From contig JAENYK010000001.1 of the NCBI GenBank assembly GCA_016841825.1, forward strand, positions 186,001 to 250,000: DNA of 64,000 nucleotides, read 5' to 3'. The DNA is from Halothermothrix sp. Its GTDB lineage: Bacteria; Bacillota; Halanaerobiia; DY22613. Positions 28,831 to 42,019 of this stretch are shown piece by piece (positions within the stretch are counted from its first letter, which is position 1; every line of letters begins with the position of its first letter). The translations under genes and the position numbers were made by a program. The notes beneath the pieces were generated by a model, which searched no databases, had not been told where the DNA came from, and saw only the letters and a program-made list of their open reading frames with translations.

Positions 28831-29208
28831 TTAAAGATCTTTTAATAATTTGACTGCTTCTTTTGAAGATAATTCACCTGAATTCAACATATCCAAAATC
28901 TCTTTTCTCTTCTGAGCTTTATCATCATCTGGAGCTGCTCCTACATCATAACCTAAAGCTTTAATAGCATGATCAAGTCTACTCCTTACAGTAGGGTAGG
29001 AGATACTCAGTTCTCTCTCCACTTCTTTGATATTACCTCTACACTTAATAAATACTTCGATAAATTCTTTCTGTTCAGAATCCAATTTACAAAATTTACA
29101 TATCTCAAAATTACCCTGAATACTGGTTCCACAGAATTGACAGTCCATTCTGGTTACTTCCAGCTCTTGATTACAAACTGGGCACTTACCAATAATCTCG
29201 TGTGCCAT
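28831..29208 (-). CDS. DUF2089 zinc-ribbon/HTH regulator
   Basis: This ~125-aa protein has an N-terminal zinc ribbon (C9, C12, C23, C26), a further CKFC pair, a helix-turn-helix (NIKEVERELSISYPTVRSRL) and a C-terminal SHOCT-like helix pair (EILDMLNSGELSSKEAVKLL). This is the DUF2089 layout. It is probably a transcription factor for its own operon. The ATG at 29208 is 9 nt after AAAGGAGG. A very good sigma-A promoter and two palindromes lie upstream. Confidence 0.82.
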   Translation of the reverse strand: MAHEIIGKCPVCNQELEVTRMDCQFCGTSIQGNFEICKFCKLDSEQKEFIEVFIKCRGNIKEVERELSISYPTVRSRLDHAIKALGYDVGAAPDDDKAQKRKEILDMLNSGELSSKEAVKLLKDL

Positions 29209-29254
29209 ACTCTTAAACCTCCTTTGTTCCATCCTTTTATTGAATATTTTGATT

Positions 29255-29294
29255 AATACTTCAAAGTATTTAACTTCTTGATTAATATTATTAA
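29255..29294. promoter_or_regulatory. Two palindromes in the leader of the DUF2089 operon
   Basis: AATACTT-CA-AAGTATT (29255-29270) and TTAATA-T-TATTAA (29282-29294) lie between the predicted transcription start (~29302) and the start codon. They may be autoregulatory operators for the HTH protein. Confidence 0.5.
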
Positions 29295-29308
29295 TTTCTT
29301 CTGTCTTA

Positions 29309-29338
29309 ATTATACACAGTAGATCAGGTATTTGTCAA
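29309..29338 (-). promoter_or_regulatory. Consensus sigma-A promoter of the DUF2089 operon
   Basis: On the minus strand, TTGACA (29333-29338) and TATAAT (29309-29314) both match the consensus exactly, with an 18-nt spacer. The rest of 29209-29572 is very AT-rich and shows no gene. Confidence 0.85.
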
Positions 29339-29572
29339 GAGAATTTTATTATAAAAATTAATTAAAAAATTGATTTTATTAATTTATTAATTAAAAAGTT
29401 TAATTCAAATATCCAATTCAGAAAAATATTTTCCCACAGTGAGTGATGTCAAGATAGAACAACGAATGACAAACGAAAGGGAAAGACCAATTTTTTTACA
29501 GCTTTTCTGCACTAACTAATCATCCACGGAAAGATTTCCTGTACCACCCCATCCGTAAAATGCAAAAAAAAT

Positions 29573-29596
29573 GACCATGTACTCACGCACATAGTC
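29573..29596 (-). terminator. Terminator of the PHP gene
   Basis: The stem GACTATGT / ACATGGTC pairs fully on minus-strand RNA with one U·G wobble. It overlaps the stop codon and is followed by A and eight T. Confidence 0.75.
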
Positions 29597-30351
29597 TAGT
29601 ATTTAGGAATAACCAGTTTCTCTCGACGGGCTGCTCTTTCCTGTAAAAATTTTTCAACCTTCTCCTGCGAAGTATTCAAAATCAACTCATCTGGAAAGTT
29701 AACATCCTCAATCAACCTCATAGTTAACTCAAAATTGCCCACATCGGCAGAAAAATGAGCATCACTCCCCAAAACTAAGATTAACTCCTGTCTTTTGGCT
29801 TCCTCAACAATCTTTTTACAGTAGTCATAACTATTCTTTCGACCAGGGCGATTATTCGCAAAAGAACTATTATTAATCTCTAAAAAGGTATTGTTCTCCC
29901 TGGCAGCACGCACAACAGCGGGAATATCGATCTGATAGTTCTCATTATCTGGATGGACGATAATATCGATCAGGGGATTACAAATAGCATTAATCATTGC
30001 TTCAGTATGTTCTTCCAAAGTTGTTCCCTCATAACCTGTAGCTGGGTGAAGTCCTGCCAGTACAATATCCATATCATAGATAATCTCTGCAGGTAAATCT
30101 ACAACACCCAGTGTATCCTGAATGTTCAACTCTACACCACGTAATACTTTAACCCCATACATCTCCAAAGAAACCACACGCATATTACCAAAATAATAGG
30201 GATGGGGGCCGCCAGGTACCATTGGCCCATGGTCAGTGATAGCCACATACTTCAAAGATCTCTCAGCGGCTGCCTGTACATTCTCCTGAATAGTACTAAA
30301 CGCATGACCAGATGCCACAGTATGGGTATGAAAGTCTGCAATAAATCGCAT
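29596..30351 (-). CDS. PHP-domain phosphoesterase (YcdX-like)
   Basis: This ~251-aa PHP protein has the metal motifs DFHTHT and ITDHG near the N-terminus, later HPDN and a C-terminal SDAH. The layout is that of YcdX-type phosphatases and the PHP domain of polymerase X. The substrate is unknown. I choose the ATG at 30351, placed after TGAGGTG; GTG and ATG codons just upstream are alternatives. No polymerase is fused to it. Confidence 0.82.
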   Translation of the reverse strand: MRFIADFHTHTVASGHAFSTIQENVQAAAERSLKYVAITDHGPMVPGGPHPYYFGNMRVVSLEMYGVKVLRGVELNIQDTLGVVDLPAEIIYDMDIVLAGLHPATGYEGTTLEEHTEAMINAICNPLIDIIVHPDNENYQIDIPAVVRAARENNTFLEINNSSFANNRPGRKNSYDYCKKIVEEAKRQELILVLGSDAHFSADVGNFELTMRLIEDVNFPDELILNTSQEKVEKFLQERAARREKLVIPKY

Positions 30352-30472
30352 CAACATCACCTCAATTACTGTACATTCTTAATTCAGATTAATCAATTTT
30401 TTGTTAGTATACCGAATTGCATTAAAAAATTGCGGGTTTCTTAATGTTTTTCCGATATTACAGAATTTGTTT

Positions 30473-31285
30473 TCACATCGAAAGTTGATCCCAGATATCT
30501 TTGATTAAATGCTGAGATTGTTGAATATGTTTAACTTTAAATTGTTCTAGAATAATTGTTTCCTGATAATTATATTGTCTCAAAAGATGAAATAACCCTG
30601 GCAAATCGAGAAGAGAATTTGACTCACCCAGTTGTTGATGATCTTTACCATTAACAACATCGTGAAGATGAATAACCTTGATCCGTTCCTTATATCTGTG
30701 GTAAAAGAGGTATACATCTGCTCTATGTAATAACAGATGTCCGACATCCATACAGACACTATACTCATATTTTTTGATATATTCGTCTAGAAATTCAAAC
30801 TCACTGTACAGATTTTCCACAGCAATCAACCGGGGCTCAATCATATCTTTCAATCTAGAAAGGGTATCTTCAACAGCATTCAGTCTGTGTTCATGAAGTT
30901 GAACCTCAAAAGGACGCCCCAAAGGTGTTCCTCCAGTTTTAAACATGGGAGTAACATGAAGTATATAAGCCAGGGGTTGAATCTCACCCACTGCTGCAAA
31001 GATCTCTTCAAGAGTTTTTAAAGAAGCATCCCGGATAAATGGATTCACATCAGTCATTCGTAAGCTTAACGGTAAATGAATGGTATAATCAAGTTCATAT
31101 TTCTCCTTATACTCTACCAGTTTGCTAATAAAATTCCGATCTACTGGAAGAGTTTGAGGGAACTCCAATGTCACTTCAATTGATTTCAGACCTAAGCGAA
31201 CATTCAAATCTATGTTAGCAAAGACATCCTGCATTGGATTGGTCAATGAAGTGGCACCCAAACGAAAAGGATATTGCTCCATCAT
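30473..31285 (-). CDS. AP-endonuclease-2-family TIM barrel (sugar isomerase-like, possibly CbiR-like)
   Basis: This 270-aa TIM barrel opens with RLGATSLTNP. Likely metal ligands lie in the TIHLP, VENLY, CMDVGHLL, VIHLHDV and ILEQF segments. This is the xylose-isomerase/AP-endonuclease-2 superfamily. The pattern MDVGHLLLH ... IHLHDVVNGKDHQQL recalls CbiR-type cobamide-remodelling phosphodiesterases, though a sugar-phosphate epimerase is equally possible. Tandem ATG codons follow GAGGGTG. It lies downstream of a sugar ABC importer, beyond a hairpin. Confidence 0.65.
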   Translation of the reverse strand: MMEQYPFRLGATSLTNPMQDVFANIDLNVRLGLKSIEVTLEFPQTLPVDRNFISKLVEYKEKYELDYTIHLPLSLRMTDVNPFIRDASLKTLEEIFAAVGEIQPLAYILHVTPMFKTGGTPLGRPFEVQLHEHRLNAVEDTLSRLKDMIEPRLIAVENLYSEFEFLDEYIKKYEYSVCMDVGHLLLHRADVYLFYHRYKERIKVIHLHDVVNGKDHQQLGESNSLLDLPGLFHLLRQYNYQETIILEQFKVKHIQQSQHLIKDIWDQLSM

Positions 31286-31448
31286 CTATCACCCTCTCTG
31301 TATGCTATCAAATCCATAACTATTCTCTTCATCCAACTATCTCACTTAATCTCGTCAAGAATAATCGGCCTTCCGGGAAGCTTTTTTACTCTCCCCAGGT
31401 AGTGCCATTATAAGAGTTGTTAGATGTCAGACATTTCCGGAGGAATAA

Positions 31449-31474
31449 CAGGGTCTACTAAATTGTAGACCCTG
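31449..31474 (-). terminator. Hairpin after the solute-binding protein gene
   Basis: A perfect 10-bp stem (CAGGGTCTAC / GTAGACCCTG) with a 6-nt loop lies 21 nt past the stop. The minus-side tail TTATTCC is only weakly T-rich. Confidence 0.6.
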
Positions 31475-31494
31475 TGCAATTCTTTATTATTATT

Positions 31495-32736
31495 CTAGAA
31501 TCCCAAAATTTTGTTAGCTTCTGCAGCTGCAGCATCGAGAGCATCTTGAATAGACATCTCATTTAGCAGAGCTTGCTGTACATAGTCACCAATGATATCA
31601 CGGATTGTACTCCATCCGTCTGGCTTAGGATCAAATGTACCATAATCAAATTGAGCTGGGCCAGCAGCGTTTTTAGAATCAGCAGCTACGAATTCTTCCC
31701 ATTCTGGAGTCTCCAGAGCGGAATAACGTATTGGTAGATAACCAGATTGAATAGCCCACCAGGCAGTATTTTCAGTATTAACCATAAACTTCAGGAATTC
31801 CATAGCAGCAGATTTCACTTCATCAGAATGATCAGTGAAAACAGCCAGGTTAGTACCCATAAATGGAGCAGCAGCCTGAACTCCAGCTACCAGAGGAGCA
31901 GCTGTCCATGCAAATTTGCCACCTACAGCCTGAGCAGCATATGGCATACCAGCAGAAGAATCTTGATACATAGCCAGTTTGCCTTCTCCCAGTGGCTCAT
32001 TTAAATAACCCTGATAGATCATTGCAACTTTATGCTTATAAACCATATCATGCAGGAATTGCAGTGCATCAACACCAGCCTGGCTGTTAAAGATGGCTTT
32101 ACCATTCTCATCTAAGAAGTCACCGCCAGCTTGACGCAGGAAGATGTTAAATGTATCTACAGTTGGACGAATACCAAAACCATAGATATCGATAACGCCA
32201 TCACCATCAACATCTTTGGTTGCTACTTTAGATTGTTCAACAAGCTCATCCCAGGTGGTAGGAACTTTGTCAACCAGATCTAAGTTAACGTACAGCAAGT
32301 TGGTACTCTTGTTAAATGGCATAGTATACATGGTGTCATCCCAGGAGTTTGATAATTGGAAAGACCAGATGATGTCATCAATCTCCTCTTGAGTGAAGAC
32401 ACTGCCAATGTACCATTGAACAGCTTCAATCTTGTCATTTTCAACGAATTTAGTAGTCCAATCTTCATACATTTGAGCAACTACAGGTGGCTCGCCAGAA
32501 GCAACTGCACCTAAAAGCTTCTTACTCAGATCACCATAGCTACCTTGATAGATACCTACAACTTCAATCTCATCTTGAGAAGCATTGAAATCATCAATCA
32601 GTTTCTGCAAGAATCCACCATGGCCACTGGACATAGCATGCCAAAAAGTTACGGTAATTTTCTCAGCTGCAAATGCAGGCATAGCCATGCTAACAACCAT
32701 AACCACGAGCAGTGCCATTAATAAAAACTTTTTCAT
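31495..32736 (-). CDS. Sugar ABC transporter substrate-binding protein (CUT1, UgpB-like)
   Basis: This 413-aa secreted protein has a cleavable signal peptide (residues 1-23, ending AFA), with no lipobox. The mature part begins KITVTFWHAMSSGHGG and has the extracellular solute-binding family 1 fold, closest in character to glycerol-3-phosphate/oligosaccharide binders. As the mature form is not lipidated, it would be free in a periplasm, which fits a diderm cell. It is the last gene of a three-gene importer unit and follows the second permease by 112 nt. Confidence 0.9.
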   Translation of the reverse strand: MKKFLLMALLVVMVVSMAMPAFAAEKITVTFWHAMSSGHGGFLQKLIDDFNASQDEIEVVGIYQGSYGDLSKKLLGAVASGEPPVVAQMYEDWTTKFVENDKIEAVQWYIGSVFTQEEIDDIIWSFQLSNSWDDTMYTMPFNKSTNLLYVNLDLVDKVPTTWDELVEQSKVATKDVDGDGVIDIYGFGIRPTVDTFNIFLRQAGGDFLDENGKAIFNSQAGVDALQFLHDMVYKHKVAMIYQGYLNEPLGEGKLAMYQDSSAGMPYAAQAVGGKFAWTAAPLVAGVQAAAPFMGTNLAVFTDHSDEVKSAAMEFLKFMVNTENTAWWAIQSGYLPIRYSALETPEWEEFVAADSKNAAGPAQFDYGTFDPKPDGWSTIRDIIGDYVQQALLNEMSIQDALDAAAAEANKILGF

Positions 32737-32782
32737 GTGTAAAATCCTCCTTTAGTTTTGTATTGATTTTAATTATTAAAAG

Positions 32783-32796
32783 GCTAGACCTCTAGC
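32783..32796 (-). promoter_or_regulatory. Intercistronic hairpin before the binding-protein gene
   Basis: The stem GCTAGA / TCTAGC is followed on the minus strand by CTTTTAATAATT, resembling a weak terminator between permease and binding protein. Two copies of GTCCAGAC lie beside it. It may set unequal expression. Confidence 0.4.
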
Positions 32797-32848
32797 AAAT
32801 GTCCAGACCTCCTATTCCCCCATAAGTCCAGACATGGTTTATAGAAGC

Positions 32849-33733
32849 TTAACCCTTCAACCCACTTCGGCTAATCCCCTGAATAAACTGCTTCTGTAAA
32901 AAGAAGAAAAGTATCAGAAGAGGCAGCAGAGCAAAGGTCGATGCCGCCATCAACAGATGGTAATCTGTACCCACATCGGTAGAGAAGAACGAAAGCCCTA
33001 CAGGTACAGTCCGCATCCCTGGGGAATTGGTGACAATGAGTACCCAGAGAAATGAATTCCAACTGCCGACAAATTTGAACAAAGCCGCTGTCACTAAAAC
33101 TGGCTTGGACAGAGGAATAACAATCTGCCACAAAAATCTGAAACGGCTACATCCATCGATTTTGGCAGCATCATGTAATTCATTGGGAATTGTCATGAAA
33201 AACTGCCGCATCAAAAAGATTCCAAACACACTGACCATCCAGGGGACGATCAATGCCTTGTATGAATCAATCCATTTTAATTGGATAATCGTCATAAAGT
33301 TAGGAATCAACATTACTTCTCCCGGAATCATCATCGTTCCCAAAAAGACCATAAAGATTACCTTTTTACCAAAGAACTCCATCTTGGCAAAGGCATAAGC
33401 CGCCAGAGCAGATGTGATTAACTCCAGAATGGTACAGGTAATAGCAACATAACAACTATTAAAGAAATATTTAGCAAAAGGCGCCATATTCCACGCTTCT
33501 GAGTAGTTCTCCCACATAAACACACTGGGAATCCACCGTGGTGGCATCGAAGCCACCTCACTGGGCATCTTTAACGAAGTGGAGATCATCCAAAAGAAAG
33601 GCATTAAAACCAATAAGGCACCCAGGGTCAAGACAACGTATAAAACAGCTCGAGAAAATCTCTCTTTAAACTTATAAGTTAAAGTAGAATTCACTTCTAA
33701 TTGTGACTCTCTATTTGCAAGCGTCTCTTTCAT
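32849..33733 (-). CDS. Sugar ABC transporter permease (MalG/UgpE type)
   Basis: This ~294-aa permease has six transmembrane helices and the EAA loop ELHDAAKIDGCSRFRFLWQIVIPL, here quoted by its parts ELHDAAKIDGCS and IVIPL, that docks to the ATPase. The ATG at 33733 is placed after AAGGTGG. It pairs with the Cache-fused permease 17 nt upstream. No ATPase gene is linked. Confidence 0.92.
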   Translation of the reverse strand: MKETLANRESQLEVNSTLTYKFKERFSRAVLYVVLTLGALLVLMPFFWMISTSLKMPSEVASMPPRWIPSVFMWENYSEAWNMAPFAKYFFNSCYVAITCTILELITSALAAYAFAKMEFFGKKVIFMVFLGTMMIPGEVMLIPNFMTIIQLKWIDSYKALIVPWMVSVFGIFLMRQFFMTIPNELHDAAKIDGCSRFRFLWQIVIPLSKPVLVTAALFKFVGSWNSFLWVLIVTNSPGMRTVPVGLSFFSTDVGTDYHLLMAASTFALLPLLILFFFLQKQFIQGISRSGLKG

Positions 33734-33750
33734 TTTTATCACCCACCTTA

Positions 33751-35682
33751 TTAGCTATAATGTACTCTATTTTTGGACAACCGCATCTGAACCAGGGTGA
33801 AAGCGAAGATTATGAAGAACAATACATAAGCTCCCGCAGATGCATAACCCATTCTAAAGTCGCCAAATGCTTTTTTATAAACATAGAATACCATGGTCAA
33901 CCCACTATTCACCAGACCAGTACCACCATTATACAGAACAAAGACCTGAGTAAAGATCTTAAAAGCACCGATAATAGAAATAATTGAGATAAAGAAAGTA
34001 GTAGGTGAGATTAATGGCAGTGTAATATGACGGAACTTCTGCCATTTAGATGCACCATCAACCTCTGCGGCCTCATATAATTCTTTCGGAACATTCTGAA
34101 GGCCAGCCAGAAAGATAACAATATTGTAACCCATCATCTTCCAAACACTAAGTAAGATCAGGTTGGGAATGGTTAAGTCAGGATTGTTCAACCAGTTAAT
34201 CGGTGCAAAATGTAGCCATTGGTCAACAGCTCCAAGGGTAAATATATGGGCAAACCAGTTAACCAGATGAGTTAACTTCAATAGGAAATAGTTCAAAAGA
34301 CCATAATTATTATAGTTGAAGATCCATTTCCAGACCATTGTTGCTGCAACCGGTGAAGTAATCCATGGAATAAAGAAAGCCATCCGATACCAGGAACGAG
34401 CCTTGATATTTGAATTTAGTAATATTGCAATAAATAATGAAAGGGAGATAGTAATTGGGACGGAAACAAAAACAAAATAACTGGTATTTATGATCGCCTT
34501 GATGAATAATCGATCTCCAAAGAGTTCTTTAAAATTATCTAAACCGATATAAGTTCTGGCACCAATCAAATCCCAATCATAAAAACTCATCGTAAAAGAC
34601 TTAATCACTGGGTAAAAGACAAATAAACCCAGAACTGCAAAAACCGGTAACATATATAGGTAAGCCCAGAACGTCTCAGTCCAATACTGCTTTACCTTAT
34701 ACTTTGCTGGAATATAGGGTAAAAAGATGATTATCATGATCGTCATAGCAATCAATGTATAGATAAGCAGCTTAAGTTGAAATGTCAGATTTAAAGCATC
34801 AATAGCCTTAACTTCAGTAATAATCCCCCATTCTATTCCCATAAAACTAATCGGGGCATAGGCAGTCAAAGTAGTCGTACCTTGATAACTACTCTGTTTA
34901 ACAATCCCTGTCTTTTGAGCCAATATTTGCTCTGCTGCCTGAGTATCAACTGTCTGAACCAGAACTGTATCTTCCTTTACTAGCCTGGAATTGGTTCTCA
35001 TCAACATATCAGAACCTATTAGATAAGTATCTTCTGAGTCCCCAAATTTGACAGGTCTAGTAAAAGTTCTACTGAGATTCCCATCTAGCCATTCAAATAC
35101 CAGGAAACCAACTGTCTTTCCATCTTGCTCAAGGGGTTTTGCCAAAAACATACTCAATTTATCAGTTGGTTTAAAAATAGCCAGATCAGAAAGTGCAATC
35201 TCACCGATTTCGGCCTTCTCAATCACCTGACCCAGACCAGTATTCCTATATTCTCCAGAGAGCATATTCGTTCCAAAAATTCCCTCATCTCTGGTACTAT
35301 ATAGCACAGTACCATCATTATGGACAAGAATTATGCTTTGCAATCGCCGCCGGCCTGCATAATTTTTAAAGGTAGATTCAAAACTTCTAATCTGAGAAGT
35401 ATATTTAGTTGAATCTGTTATCTCATTGGATTGATAGAGTTGAGTCAACACCTCCATCATACCCAATACTTTGTCTTCAGTAGAAAAATCTGTTATGTAT
35501 TCAACCTGATTAGTGAAAAACTCTTCAATAAGAACCTTATTTGTATCACGAATCTCTGCTAAGTGTGAAAATACAGTAGATTGTTTAGAGTTTTCCAGGA
35601 CGGCTACTGTCCCGAGAAGGATAATACTGATGACAATTAAGTAAATAGTCAATCTCATCCTCAAACTTAATTTTTTTAACAT
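33751..35682 (-). CDS. Fusion of a Cache-type sensor domain with a MalF-type ABC permease
   Basis: This 643-aa single frame has two halves. Residues ~10-29 are a membrane helix. Residues ~30-300 form an extracytoplasmic domain like the double-Cache ligand-binding region of chemoreceptors and histidine kinases, with SIILVHNDGTVLYST (116-130), YLIGSDMLMRT (220-230) and GIEWGIITEVKAIDA (282-296). Residues ~303-324 form a second helix. Residues ~338-635 are a complete CUT1 permease with the EAA loop EAAEVDGASKWQKF (537-550). A usual MalF/UgpA permease is about 290-320 aa, so the sensor is an addition. The start is ATG 6 nt after GGAGGG. It could let ligand binding gate or tune transport; that is inference. 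Confidence 0.88.
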   Translation of the reverse strand: MLKKLSLRMRLTIYLIVISIILLGTVAVLENSKQSTVFSHLAEIRDTNKVLIEEFFTNQVEYITDFSTEDKVLGMMEVLTQLYQSNEITDSTKYTSQIRSFESTFKNYAGRRRLQSIILVHNDGTVLYSTRDEGIFGTNMLSGEYRNTGLGQVIEKAEIGEIALSDLAIFKPTDKLSMFLAKPLEQDGKTVGFLVFEWLDGNLSRTFTRPVKFGDSEDTYLIGSDMLMRTNSRLVKEDTVLVQTVDTQAAEQILAQKTGIVKQSSYQGTTTLTAYAPISFMGIEWGIITEVKAIDALNLTFQLKLLIYTLIAMTIMIIIFLPYIPAKYKVKQYWTETFWAYLYMLPVFAVLGLFVFYPVIKSFTMSFYDWDLIGARTYIGLDNFKELFGDRLFIKAIINTSYFVFVSVPITISLSLFIAILLNSNIKARSWYRMAFFIPWITSPVAATMVWKWIFNYNNYGLLNYFLLKLTHLVNWFAHIFTLGAVDQWLHFAPINWLNNPDLTIPNLILLSVWKMMGYNIVIFLAGLQNVPKELYEAAEVDGASKWQKFRHITLPLISPTTFFISIISIIGAFKIFTQVFVLYNGGTGLVNSGLTMVFYVYKKAFGDFRMGYASAGAYVLFFIIFAFTLVQMRLSKNRVHYS

Positions 35683-35923
35683 ACTTAGCCCTCCAACTTT
35701 CTAATAAATTGTGTTCTACTGTAGGCACATAAATAACCATCCAGAACAACTATGCACTATTAACTTAAAACCTGTTATATCTATAATCATTAAGCAACCC
35801 GCAACTATATTAATTCACCATGAAAACAAATTTTCCTCTTTCTTTTTTTTGGCGATATTAAAAATAACTTTCTCTTAACATTCTCTATTCTTCAATCAAT
35901 TGCCAACACATTATCCAGTACAA

Positions 35924-35949
35924 AGCCCCTCTCTTTATCAGCAGGGGCT
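35924..35949 (-). terminator. Terminator of uvrC
   Basis: The stem AGCCCCT / AGGGGCT (12-nt loop) lies 11 nt past the uvrC stop, followed by TTTGT on the minus strand. Confidence 0.65.
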
Positions 35950-35959
35950 CGATAAAATA

Positions 35960-37792
35960 TTAGTTATCTAAAAACTCAGCAAGCAGAAAACTTCTGATTC
36001 CCTCTGCTGTCTTCTCACTAATACCTTCTACTTCACAAAGTTCCTCAATGGTTGCAGAGCGTATCTTTTCTAGTGAACCAAAATATTGAAGTAATGCCTG
36101 GCGCCGCTTGGGACCAACTCCCGGAATCTCATCGATCAAAGTATGAGTCATTCGCTTAGTTCGTAGACGACGATGAAAACTTATTGCAAAACGATGTGCT
36201 TCATCTCGAACTCTCTGAATTAAATAGAGCGCTTCAGAATGGCGGGGTAAAAGAATAGGTTCCGATTGTCCCGGTAAGAATACCTCTTCTTCACGCTTGG
36301 CCAGACCGATAATCTGTTGGTCTTCAATCTCCAATTCTTGAAGAATTGCGATGGCTGCATTTAATTGACCTTTACCACCATCAATTAAAATCAGATCAGG
36401 CAGTTTCTTATTTTCTTCTTTAAGCCTCCGATACCGTCTTCCGACAACTTCATTCATGCTGGCAAAATCATCAGGACTCCCTTCAGCAATTCTAATCTTA
36501 AAGCGGCGGTAATCATCCTTTTTAGGTTGACCATTTTCAAAGACTACTAATGAAGCCACTGTATCTATACCCTGAATGTGAGAGATGTCAAAACCCTCTA
36601 TCCTGATCGGAGGTTTGTCTAATTCCAGATAGGTCTGAAGCTCTTTCACTCCTTTTAAAGGACGATCAGAGGCATAGGTCTCTCTAATCCTCTCTTTCTT
36701 CAAATTTTCCTGGGCATTTTTCCGGGCCAGCTCAATGAACTGTTTTTTTAAACCTCTCTGAGGAACTATCAGGACTACCTTCCTGCCGGCCACCTCTCTT
36801 AACCAGTCGCCAATGGTTTCAGGTTCATCCAATTCTTCTTCTAGCAAAATTTCTCTGGGCAAAATCTGCTGATCCAGATAGTATTGTTTAATAAAGGCAG
36901 AGATAATCTCACCTGGCTGTTCGTCTGCCACACCCTGCATCATAAAATACTCCTGTCCCATCAATCTACCCTGTCTGATAATCATCACTTGCAGACAGGC
37001 TTTGTCATCTTCTACTGCTATGGCTACCACATCACGATCAACCATGTCTTCGGTAACCACCTTCTGACTTTGAATTATCTTTTCCACAGCCTTTACTGAA
37101 TCACGATAATAAGCAGCTTTTTCAAAGTCTAATTCTTCCGCAGAATGGTTCATCCTATCCTTTAACTCTCTAATCAACTGATCTGCCTTTCCTTCTAAAA
37201 ACAGGATCACTTCTTTCACCATCTGCTGATAATCTTTTTTAGTGACAGCACCAATACAAGGTCCTGGACATTTTTTGATATGATAATTCAAACAGGGTCG
37301 ATCGTCAAATTCCCCGTCTATAATGTTCTTTTTACACATACGGATAGGAAAGAGTTTTTTCAAAATATTTAAGGTCTTGTAAACTGCATCCACATCAACA
37401 AAGGGGCCAAAATATCTGGCGCCATCTTTTTTGACAATCCTGGTCTTAAATATCCGTGGAAATTCCTCATTAACAGTTACCTTAATATACGGATAAGTCT
37501 TATCATCCTTCAACCTAATATTGTAAATAGGATCATGTCTCTTAATCAGATTTGATTCCAAAATTAACGCTTCAACCTCTGAATCAGTGACAATATAATC
37601 GAAATCGTAGATATGCTGTTTTAAAATCTCCGTCTTATAGTTGTTCTGCCGAGCTTCCTGAAAGTAAGATCTCACCCTGTTCCGCAGTACTTTGGCCTTT
37701 CCGACATAGATAATCTCGCCATATTTATCTTTCATCAGATAGACCCCTGGTTGTCTGGGCAAAATTTTTAGTTTTTCTGTCAGATTCATCAT
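35960..37792 (-). CDS. uvrC: Excinuclease ABC subunit C
   Basis: This 610-aa nuclease of nucleotide excision repair has the N-terminal GIY-YIG domain (PGVYLMKD and IIYVGKAK, ~15-95) for the 3' cut. A UVR motif (~200-235) for UvrB contact follows, then the RNase-H-like endonuclease domain with GFDISHIQG and LILIDGGKGQLNAA, and a C-terminal helix-hairpin-helix pair. The length is normal. The ATG follows GAGGGAG. It is separated from uvrBA by the maltodextrin operon and has its own terminator. Confidence 0.97.
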   Translation of the reverse strand: MMNLTEKLKILPRQPGVYLMKDKYGEIIYVGKAKVLRNRVRSYFQEARQNNYKTEILKQHIYDFDYIVTDSEVEALILESNLIKRHDPIYNIRLKDDKTYPYIKVTVNEEFPRIFKTRIVKKDGARYFGPFVDVDAVYKTLNILKKLFPIRMCKKNIIDGEFDDRPCLNYHIKKCPGPCIGAVTKKDYQQMVKEVILFLEGKADQLIRELKDRMNHSAEELDFEKAAYYRDSVKAVEKIIQSQKVVTEDMVDRDVVAIAVEDDKACLQVMIIRQGRLMGQEYFMMQGVADEQPGEIISAFIKQYYLDQQILPREILLEEELDEPETIGDWLREVAGRKVVLIVPQRGLKKQFIELARKNAQENLKKERIRETYASDRPLKGVKELQTYLELDKPPIRIEGFDISHIQGIDTVASLVVFENGQPKKDDYRRFKIRIAEGSPDDFASMNEVVGRRYRRLKEENKKLPDLILIDGGKGQLNAAIAILQELEIEDQQIIGLAKREEEVFLPGQSEPILLPRHSEALYLIQRVRDEAHRFAISFHRRLRTKRMTHTLIDEIPGVGPKRRQALLQYFGSLEKIRSATIEELCEVEGISEKTAEGIRSFLLAEFLDN

Positions 37793-39756: not shown

Positions 39757-40602
39757 TTATCCTTTGGTAGCACCTCTGGTTAAACCAGAGATAAAGTATT
39801 TCTGTAACGACATATACACAATTACGATAGGAATTGCCATTAATAGTGCTCCAGCAGTAAAAGTGGTCCAGTTCTTACCAAATTGATTATTAACTAACGA
39901 AAAGAGTCCAATCGTCAAGGTATACTTCTTATAAGATGTTAATAGAATTCTGGCCAAAATAAAATCACCAAATGGTATTACAAAGTGGAAAATGGTGATC
40001 ACGGCAATAATCGGTTTAGCCAAAGGTATCATAATCTTCCAGAAGATTGTCATTCTACTGGCACCATCAATTAATGCTGCTTCTTCCAAAGATTTTGGAA
40101 TAGTGTCAAAATAACCTTTCATAATCCAGGCGTTAAAGGGAATATTCGTTCCGGCATAGACTAAAACCAATCCCATATGAGAATCCAATAACCCGACCAT
40201 ATTTAACAGAACGTACAGAGCCACAATATTCATAAAAGAAGGAAACATTTGAATAACCAGCATAGCCATCATTCCATATTTGCGACCTGCAAACCTAAAC
40301 CTGGAATAGGCATATGCAGTAGTTGAACACAGGATTACTCCTAATAAAGCAGTCAAACTGGCCACTTTCAAGGTATTCAGATACCACAGATGAAATGGAT
40401 AATCTGAATTGGTTACCAACTCCCGATAATGTTCTAATGTCGGTTTTTTGGGAAACATTGTTGAACTGTACAAACTATCACCTGAATTGAAAGATGCTCC
40501 GATCATCCAGAGGATTGGATAAGCCACAATCGCAACCATAACCAACAAAAATAGATAAGAAAAGGTTAAGCGTAAATATTTCAAAGTCTTTTGGTTTATC
40601 AT
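39757..40602 (-). CDS. malG: Maltodextrin ABC transporter permease MalG
   Basis: This 281-aa permease has six membrane helices, the EAA loop LEEAALIDGASRMTIFWKI (short form EAALIDGAS) and the C-terminal FISGLTRGATKG typical of MalG. Its ATG overlaps the malF stop as ATGA, indicating coupled translation. It works with MalF and MalE. Confidence 0.93.
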   Translation of the reverse strand: MINQKTLKYLRLTFSYLFLLVMVAIVAYPILWMIGASFNSGDSLYSSTMFPKKPTLEHYRELVTNSDYPFHLWYLNTLKVASLTALLGVILCSTTAYAYSRFRFAGRKYGMMAMLVIQMFPSFMNIVALYVLLNMVGLLDSHMGLVLVYAGTNIPFNAWIMKGYFDTIPKSLEEAALIDGASRMTIFWKIMIPLAKPIIAVITIFHFVIPFGDFILARILLTSYKKYTLTIGLFSLVNNQFGKNWTTFTAGALLMAIPIVIVYMSLQKYFISGLTRGATKG

Positions 40603-41912
40603 TGTAACATATCCTCCTCCTGGAAGGAACGGGTCCTTCTAAAGTTATAGATACTAAATCCGGCAACTATTATGAAGATAATTAACGACAAAGCTGCCGC
40701 ATAGTTATACTTAAGTTTGTCTAATGTCAGTTTAAATACCCAGGAGATCAAAATATCTGTTCCACCTGCATCCCGCAAACCTATAATCGGAGGTTTACCT
40801 TGATTGAATAGATAGATAACGTTAAAATTGTTAAAGTTATATGACATCTGCATAATGATCAATGGGGCAGTTGAATACAAAACCAGCGGTAAAGTGATCT
40901 TAAAAAACTTCTGAAATGGAGATGCTCCATCAACCATAGCTGCTTCATAAATATCCTGGGGAATACTCTGCAAAATGCCTGTACATAGAGCCATCTGGAA
41001 TGGAAATCCAACCCATAGGTTAACTAAGAGCACTGCTATTTTGGCCCAGGTGGGATCTTCCAACCATCTGACAGGACCTAAGTGGAAAAACGCCAATAAG
41101 TCATTGATTGGACCAAAATTAGTATTGAATAGACCTGTAAAGATCAGTATCGAGACCAGAGCCGGTACAGCCCAGGGCAAGATAAGAATCGTCCGAAAAA
41201 TTTTTGAGCCTTTGATATCTTTCTGATTTAAGATTAATGCCACAAATAATCCTAGACCAAAAGTACTCACAGTTGAAAGAACTGTCCAGACAACAGTCCA
41301 GGAAAAGACATAAGTTAAGGTTCTCTTCCAACCACCAAAAGACCAGATCATTTTAAAATTATTAAACCCCACCCACTCAATAAATTTTGCTGGGGGTGAG
41401 TGATATAAGTCATAATTAGTGAAAGCAATCAAAGTAGTGAAGAGTAATGGTATCAATGTTACCAGTATCAGAAAAATCATACCGGGTGATAGATAGGCTA
41501 GAGCATAACCCTGGTCTACAACATTTTTTATCGTCTGCTTAATACCAGGTACCCGATAACCTTGATCACGTAATTTTCCATTCTTATAAGCATCAATAAT
41601 ATTAAGAATATAAATCCCTAAAACAATTAAAAATAAAACAACTCCCACAAGGCTTTCAATCATTATCACCAATGAGTGATCTTTACCTGGAGTCTCCCCC
41701 ATCGTCGTCAAACCCCAATATGAATATTTCCAAAAATCTAGCCCACTAATTATCGCAAAAATATATATAATGATATAAACTATCCCTTTGACAAATTGAC
41801 CATTAAAAATTTGACCAAACCCCATGCAGATTGCTGATAAAATAGCTGCTATATATCTTTTAGTCCCTGTCACAGTAATATTTTTTGACACAGCATTGGT
41901 TTGTGGGGTCAT
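40599..41912 (-). CDS. malF: Maltodextrin ABC transporter permease MalF
   Basis: This ~437-aa permease has an N-terminal extension with membrane helices (SAICMGFGQIFNGQFVKG onward), as in Bacillus MdxF-like proteins, followed by the six-helix permease core. The EAA loop is EAAMVDGASPFQKF. I choose the ATG at 41912, nine nt after GAGAGG; the longer frame starts at a GTG with no ribosome site. It is separated from malE by 251 bp that hold a family 2 repeat and a 32-bp palindrome. Confidence 0.92.
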   Translation of the reverse strand: MTPQTNAVSKNITVTGTKRYIAAILSAICMGFGQIFNGQFVKGIVYIIIYIFAIISGLDFWKYSYWGLTTMGETPGKDHSLVIMIESLVGVVLFLIVLGIYILNIIDAYKNGKLRDQGYRVPGIKQTIKNVVDQGYALAYLSPGMIFLILVTLIPLLFTTLIAFTNYDLYHSPPAKFIEWVGFNNFKMIWSFGGWKRTLTYVFSWTVVWTVLSTVSTFGLGLFVALILNQKDIKGSKIFRTILILPWAVPALVSILIFTGLFNTNFGPINDLLAFFHLGPVRWLEDPTWAKIAVLLVNLWVGFPFQMALCTGILQSIPQDIYEAAMVDGASPFQKFFKITLPLVLYSTAPLIIMQMSYNFNNFNVIYLFNQGKPPIIGLRDAGGTDILISWVFKLTLDKLKYNYAAALSLIIFIIVAGFSIYNFRRTRSFQEEDMLQ

Positions 41913-42019
41913 TACTTCACACCTCTCTTTCCCATATGCAAACCTGACCTCTTTCAATATCTTCACCTAGTAAAGGTGCATTTGTTAATTCCTTAAATTT
42001 AACGACTTCAAAAGGGATT

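Follow-up and report, generated by a model that had tools for sequence, protein, structure and literature searches.

A gene for a CUT1 permease subunit of the UgpA/MalF type carries as a new N-terminal part, in one reading frame, the sensor module of a chemoreceptor, consisting of a transmembrane helix (TM1), a double Cache (dCache) domain predicted to be extracytoplasmic and a second transmembrane helix (TM2). The domain fusion is real and so far known from one genome. We propose that the protein belongs to a functional CUT1 importer and that the acquired module tunes transport in cis, a reading to which we give a probability of about 0.4. The importer itself could then sense a signal through its putative outside-facing dCache, which would offer a testable case in which a sensor transplanted from a chemoreceptor controls transport at the membrane.

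Results

The 64-kb window, by which we mean the whole stretch of DNA that was analysed, holds the fused gene as a single frame of 643 codons that starts at an ATG and has no internal stop (Table 1). An earlier sequence-only reading had proposed this frame, with halves at residues ~10-324 and ~338-635; the frame is present and those limits are correct to within a few residues, the join lying at ~321-324. Homology to methyl-accepting chemotaxis proteins (MCPs) ends at ~322-328 and homology to the permease of the nearest relative starts at residue 324 in the same frame, and the join is too tight to accommodate a stop, a ribosome site and a start. The start codons near the join (ATG 313 and 316, within TM2, and TTG 310) are all without a ribosome site, and GGAGGG stands before the ATG of the whole frame. 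GC content is similar in the two halves (36.7 and 37.1%). No Rfam match was found in 29000-36500.

Table 1. Features of the fused gene and of its operon neighbours; positions are those of the window.
Feature	Position	Strand	Evidence
Fused gene, 643 aa and stop: TM1, dCache, TM2, CUT1 permease	33751..35682	-	Single open frame; Pfam matches both halves
MCP-derived sensor cassette, residues 1-323 (TM1, stalk helix, double Cache, TM2)	34714..35682	-	End-to-end alignment with MCP N-termini, tree, absence from the syntenic G150 gene
TM1, ~residues 9-29, continuing into the long stalk helix (7-67)	35596..35658	-	Structure model; position from hydrophobicity by inspection
dCache, predicted extracytoplasmic, ~residues 33-300	34783..35586	-	pLDDT mostly >85; Z 17-21 against McpB, DctB, PctA and histidine-kinase sensors
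TM2, ~residues 301-320	34723..34782	-	Helical in both models; aligned to MCP TM2
Short cytoplasmic linker and fusion point, ~residues 321-329, without HAMP	34696..34722	-	End of MCP homology, start of G150 permease homology
CUT1 (UgpA/MalF-type) permease, residues 324-643	33754..34713	-	83% identity to the unfused G150 permease; pLDDT ~90; SugA/MalF/AlgM1 matches
EAA loop, residues 537-557 (EAAEVDGASKWQKFRHITLPL)	34012..34074	-	Columns E537, A538, A539, D542 and G543 invariant or nearly so
Ribosome-binding site GGAGGG, 5' of the fused ATG	35689..35694	-	Sequence
5' leader, also conserved before the unfused G150 permease	35751..35878	-	Local alignment against shuffles
Partner permease (UgpE/MalG type)	32849..33742	-	BPD_transp_1 E 5e-24; best NCBIfam match UgpE; 77% identity in G150
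Solute-binding protein (UgpB-like, SBP_bac_8)	31495..32736	-	E 1e-37; 69% identity in G150
TIM-barrel enzyme above the NCBIfam CbiR cut-off	30473..31285	-	150.9 bits against 105; same neighbour in G150

The sensor half was modelled with AlphaFold (residues 1-328, alignment of 29 sequences) and gave a mean pLDDT of 88.9. The model consists of a first long helix (7-67), two PAS-like modules and a final long helix (298-320), so that both hallmarks of a dCache, the long N-terminal helix and the pair of PAS-like modules, are present. Structure comparison (Foldseek, VIA-align) paired it with solved dCache sensors across ~210-290 residues at Z 17-21, with values of 20.8 for the McpB model, 19.3 for vpHK1S-Z8, 18.9 for DctB and 18.3 for PctA, and a profile search of PDB sequences matched the chemoreceptor McpH at E 1e-6 in its membrane-proximal half. 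In Pfam, residues 75-289 match dCache_1 with 37-39 bits (E 4e-9 to 8e-10), which is below the curated cut-off of 45; 25 of the 29 aligned members matched it with an E of 0.01 or lower, the best reaching 4.5e-24. By model and structure comparison the helix-Cache-helix unit that had been claimed from the sequence is a dCache fold of the kind found in chemoreceptor and kinase sensors. The models place this domain, by prediction, outside the cell and adjoining the docking face of the binding protein.

Alignment and phylogeny both indicate that the sensor half derives from an MCP. Residues 1-323 align over their full length with MCP N-termini at 21-30% identity, and among the matches listed the close relatives of residues 1-328 in the class are MCP-like frames, mostly of 620-770 aa. 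Two relatives from the same GTDB family are, over their whole sequences, MCPs: L129, from the same genome, and L124, from the nearest relative, which we call G150. The fused sensor groups with these two in a maximum-likelihood tree at a support of 96/92, rising to 100/99 when three long-branch rows are excluded. It branches outside the L124+L129 pair (95/81), on a branch of 2.25 changes per site. Residues conserved among MCPs are retained to 51% in the fused sensor, 56% in L129 and 69% in L124; with a retention so near that of the genome's own MCP the sensor is diverged, not obviously decayed. Evolution has been much faster in the sensor than in the permease half, as that branch length compares with 83% permease identity to G150.

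The second half is a full CUT1 permease with its EAA loop, as had been claimed. Residues 413-632 match BPD_transp_1 in Pfam at E 1e-15 (58.2 bits against a curated cut-off of 26.4), and EAAEVDGA at residues 537-544 falls in the conserved columns of the EAA loop. The best NCBIfam matches of the fused protein are UgpA, GlcT and MalF, all below the equivalog cut-offs; the score of 121.8 bits misses the 335 bits set for the UgpA equivalog (glycerol-3-phosphate importer). The permease was modelled separately from the sensor, and in this second model, built on permease rows, residues 335-640 reached a pLDDT of ~90 and matched SugA, MalF and AlgM1. The sensor region of the second model had no alignment rows and is unfolded there. 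TM2 ends in it at ~319 and the first permease helix begins at 330, giving a connection of ~10 residues. A Pfam scan found no MCP signalling domain in the fused protein, the permease occupying residues 324-643.

The fused gene is followed on the same strand by genes for a UgpE-like permease, a UgpB-like binding protein, a CbiR-like TIM barrel and a PHP protein, the first two being the partner permease and binding protein expected from the sequence-only reading. No ATPase gene was seen next to the three importer genes; the ATPase of CUT1 systems is often shared and encoded elsewhere. A side observation is the occurrence of a CbiR-like (cobamide remodelling) protein and a PHP-domain neighbour within a sugar/glycerophosphate-type ABC operon, in an order kept in G150.

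G150 belongs to the same GTDB family but to another genus and is the only other genome of the family that was compared. Its locus has the same order as the window: MalE-, MalF- and MalG-like genes, an amylase-like gene, uvrC, the permease, a UgpE-like gene, a binding protein, a CbiR-like gene and PHP. The permease is ordinary, 326 aa long and without a sensor, with its start just 5' of a conserved IPTKY motif. From residue 324 on the fused protein is 82-83% identical to this orthologue, which equals or exceeds the 65-82% of the operon neighbours; a permease half as conserved as its neighbours is under ordinary constraint, and is probably functional on this sequence comparison. The leader is common to both genomes, its local alignment scoring 96 where 300 shuffles averaged 64.7 (sd 8.1, max 89), and the stretch with the ribosome site is also similar, although not significantly when taken alone (50 of 1000 shuffles reach its score). 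The common leader and the synteny thus place ~970 bp of sensor coding sequence between the leader of the permease gene and that gene's own first codons. No remnant of the sensor was found in the G150 intergenic region.

Absence from close relatives had been named beforehand as speaking against the fusion. The sister-genus locus does lack the sensor, and no second fusion was found in the class (59 genomes) among the matches listed; the absence marks the position of the cassette and does not point to an artefact. Among the matches listed, no second fusion appeared either in a sample of the phylum (398 genomes), in two other classes (399 and 17 genomes), in a third (7 genomes) or in 78 related loci from a genome-contig scan, and no record of a plasmid collection (72,556) covered 80% of the query. 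The genome samples overlap and amount to ~830 distinct genomes, from which rare or distant fusions may escape, and other phyla were covered through the genome-contig scan (78 loci) and the plasmids. With no fused homologue among the matches listed in the class and phylum samples, a gain in this lineage is favoured. The position of the sensor outside the L124+L129 pair would also fit a gain already in the common ancestor that G150 then lost cleanly.

Three candidates for further fusions were rejected. Cache-to-permease matches on Rhizobium plasmids contain an ordinary permease frame of 342 aa, the match having run into the upstream ATPase gene. Long match spans on genome contigs, which could be taken for a widespread fusion, include the tandem partner permease, and the permease frames there measure at most ~360 aa. 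A permease frame of 783 aa in genome G055 has an over-long start in a high-GC genome. Separately, MalG-type partner permeases of 360 aa in Rhizobium (L183:8226-9308, L184:4250-5332) have ~70 extra residues near the N-terminus.

Discussion

The fused protein shares with UgpA, MalF and SugA the permease core, the EAA loop and an operon with partner permease and binding protein; it differs in its ~323-residue N-terminal TM-dCache-TM part, which occurs in none of the matched structures or 78 related loci, in agreement with the claim that standard MalF/UgpA permeases lack it. With dCache MCPs (its own L129, the sister L124 and, by structure, B. subtilis McpB) it has in common TM1, the stalk helix, the double Cache and TM2, but where these have HAMP and a signalling domain it has a permease. 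E. coli MalF also combines a large extracytoplasmic part, the P2 loop, with a MalF-type subunit. That loop has a different fold and is inserted within the permease, between TM3 and TM4, whereas the dCache stands ahead of the permease with a TM pair of its own, as the sequence-only reading had argued. The fused protein is therefore neither an MCP nor a MalF P2 variant. OpuA and GlnP likewise have an extracytoplasmic domain fused to a permease subunit, but theirs are substrate-binding domains that feed the importer, while here a PAS-like sensor fold stands beside a separate binding-protein gene. Cache domains are described as the sensory parts of kinases, chemoreceptors, cyclases and c-di-GMP enzymes, and in a published survey of Cache proteins all outputs except SMP_2 belonged to signal transduction (PMC4822843). 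A Cache on an importer subunit would, if it acts as a sensor, represent a new kind of output. The open-access literature searched gave no account of a Cache-permease fusion; earlier notice in protein-architecture databases is possible.

Direct ligand control of transport by the fused sensor is plausible from this architecture. Contact of a ligand or of the binding protein with the dCache would shift TM2 as in chemoreceptors, and the shift would pass through the ~10-residue linker without HAMP to the first permease helix, tuning the transport cycle in cis. With HAMP absent and the linker short, a piston-like or tilting movement of TM2 could be transmitted straight to that helix. That a transport rate can be set by an extracytoplasmic partner has a precedent in MalFGK2 (PMC3328499). 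Tuning in cis is favoured by the single frame with one ribosome site and none internal at the join, by a sensor fold complete with both TM helices and not visibly decayed, by a permease half close to the unfused G150 gene and by the tree support of 100/99 for an MCP-derived sensor. Against it stand the single genome and the long sensor branch, which is also compatible with relaxed constraint. The main mechanistic objection concerns stoichiometry: chemoreceptor dCache sensors usually act as dimers, but with one such subunit per importer a single dCache would have to act, unless two importers pair. In a stricter version the dCache would act as a direct switch: on binding its ligand it would displace TM2 and turn the adjoining permease subunit on or off, bypassing kinase, HAMP and transcription. 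We regard this as a rather doubtful proposal. For either version the sister genus provides a natural control, having the same transporter without the sensor.

The chemoreceptor fragment could instead do little, the permease working as before while the sensor drifts as a tolerated passenger. The single genome, the long sensor branch and a sister genus for which the unfused form suffices all fit with this; yet a frame of ~970 bp has stayed open, fold-critical residues are retained at the level of a paralogous MCP and the sensor is modelled with high confidence, and we consider such drift unlikely. Slightly less likely still is a docking or capture role, in which the dCache would keep a ligand, or the solute-binding protein, close to the importer with no allosteric gating. 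The dCache is predicted by the models to face outward near the docking place of the binding protein, and a parallel exists in the interaction of the MalF P2 loop with MalE throughout the cycle, according to a study cited in PMC3328499 (reference 29); but P2 has another fold and another position, and the source family of the dCache is a chemoreceptor sensor and not a binding protein. Its kinship with the organism's own MCP lineage, together with the retained TM1, stalk and TM2, raises the further idea that transport is linked to chemotaxis signalling through pairing of the importer, by dCache and stalk helix, with same-family MCPs; this is improbable given 27% identity to the one close MCP of the genome, a distance at which the specificity of pairing is doubtful. 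Finally, the assembly is a draft of 43 contigs and the fusion is unique among the matches listed, but a misassembly or sequencing error that merged a stand-alone sensor gene with a permease gene is highly improbable, since both flanks are syntenic with G150, the leader 5' of the sensor matches the G150 permease leader, the two homologies abut in frame and the sensor segment lacks a near-duplicate in the assembly, where the next best match has 27% identity, so that an assembly misled by repeats is unlikely.

Two further observations concern the surroundings of the locus. MITE-like inverted repeats occur in G150 (L116:8399-8855, L117:1709-1846), with two copies in the gap between uvrC and the permease and a further occurrence 5' of L124, the MCP gene related to the fused sensor; no such inverted-repeat elements were found in the 64-kb window. 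It is speculation that the G150 elements might have served as recombination sites. A neighbouring MalF-type permease in the window (40599-41966, 455 aa) has an N-terminal extension too, with a weak match to DUF5683, so that the window has two cases of a MalF-type subunit with an N-terminal addition.
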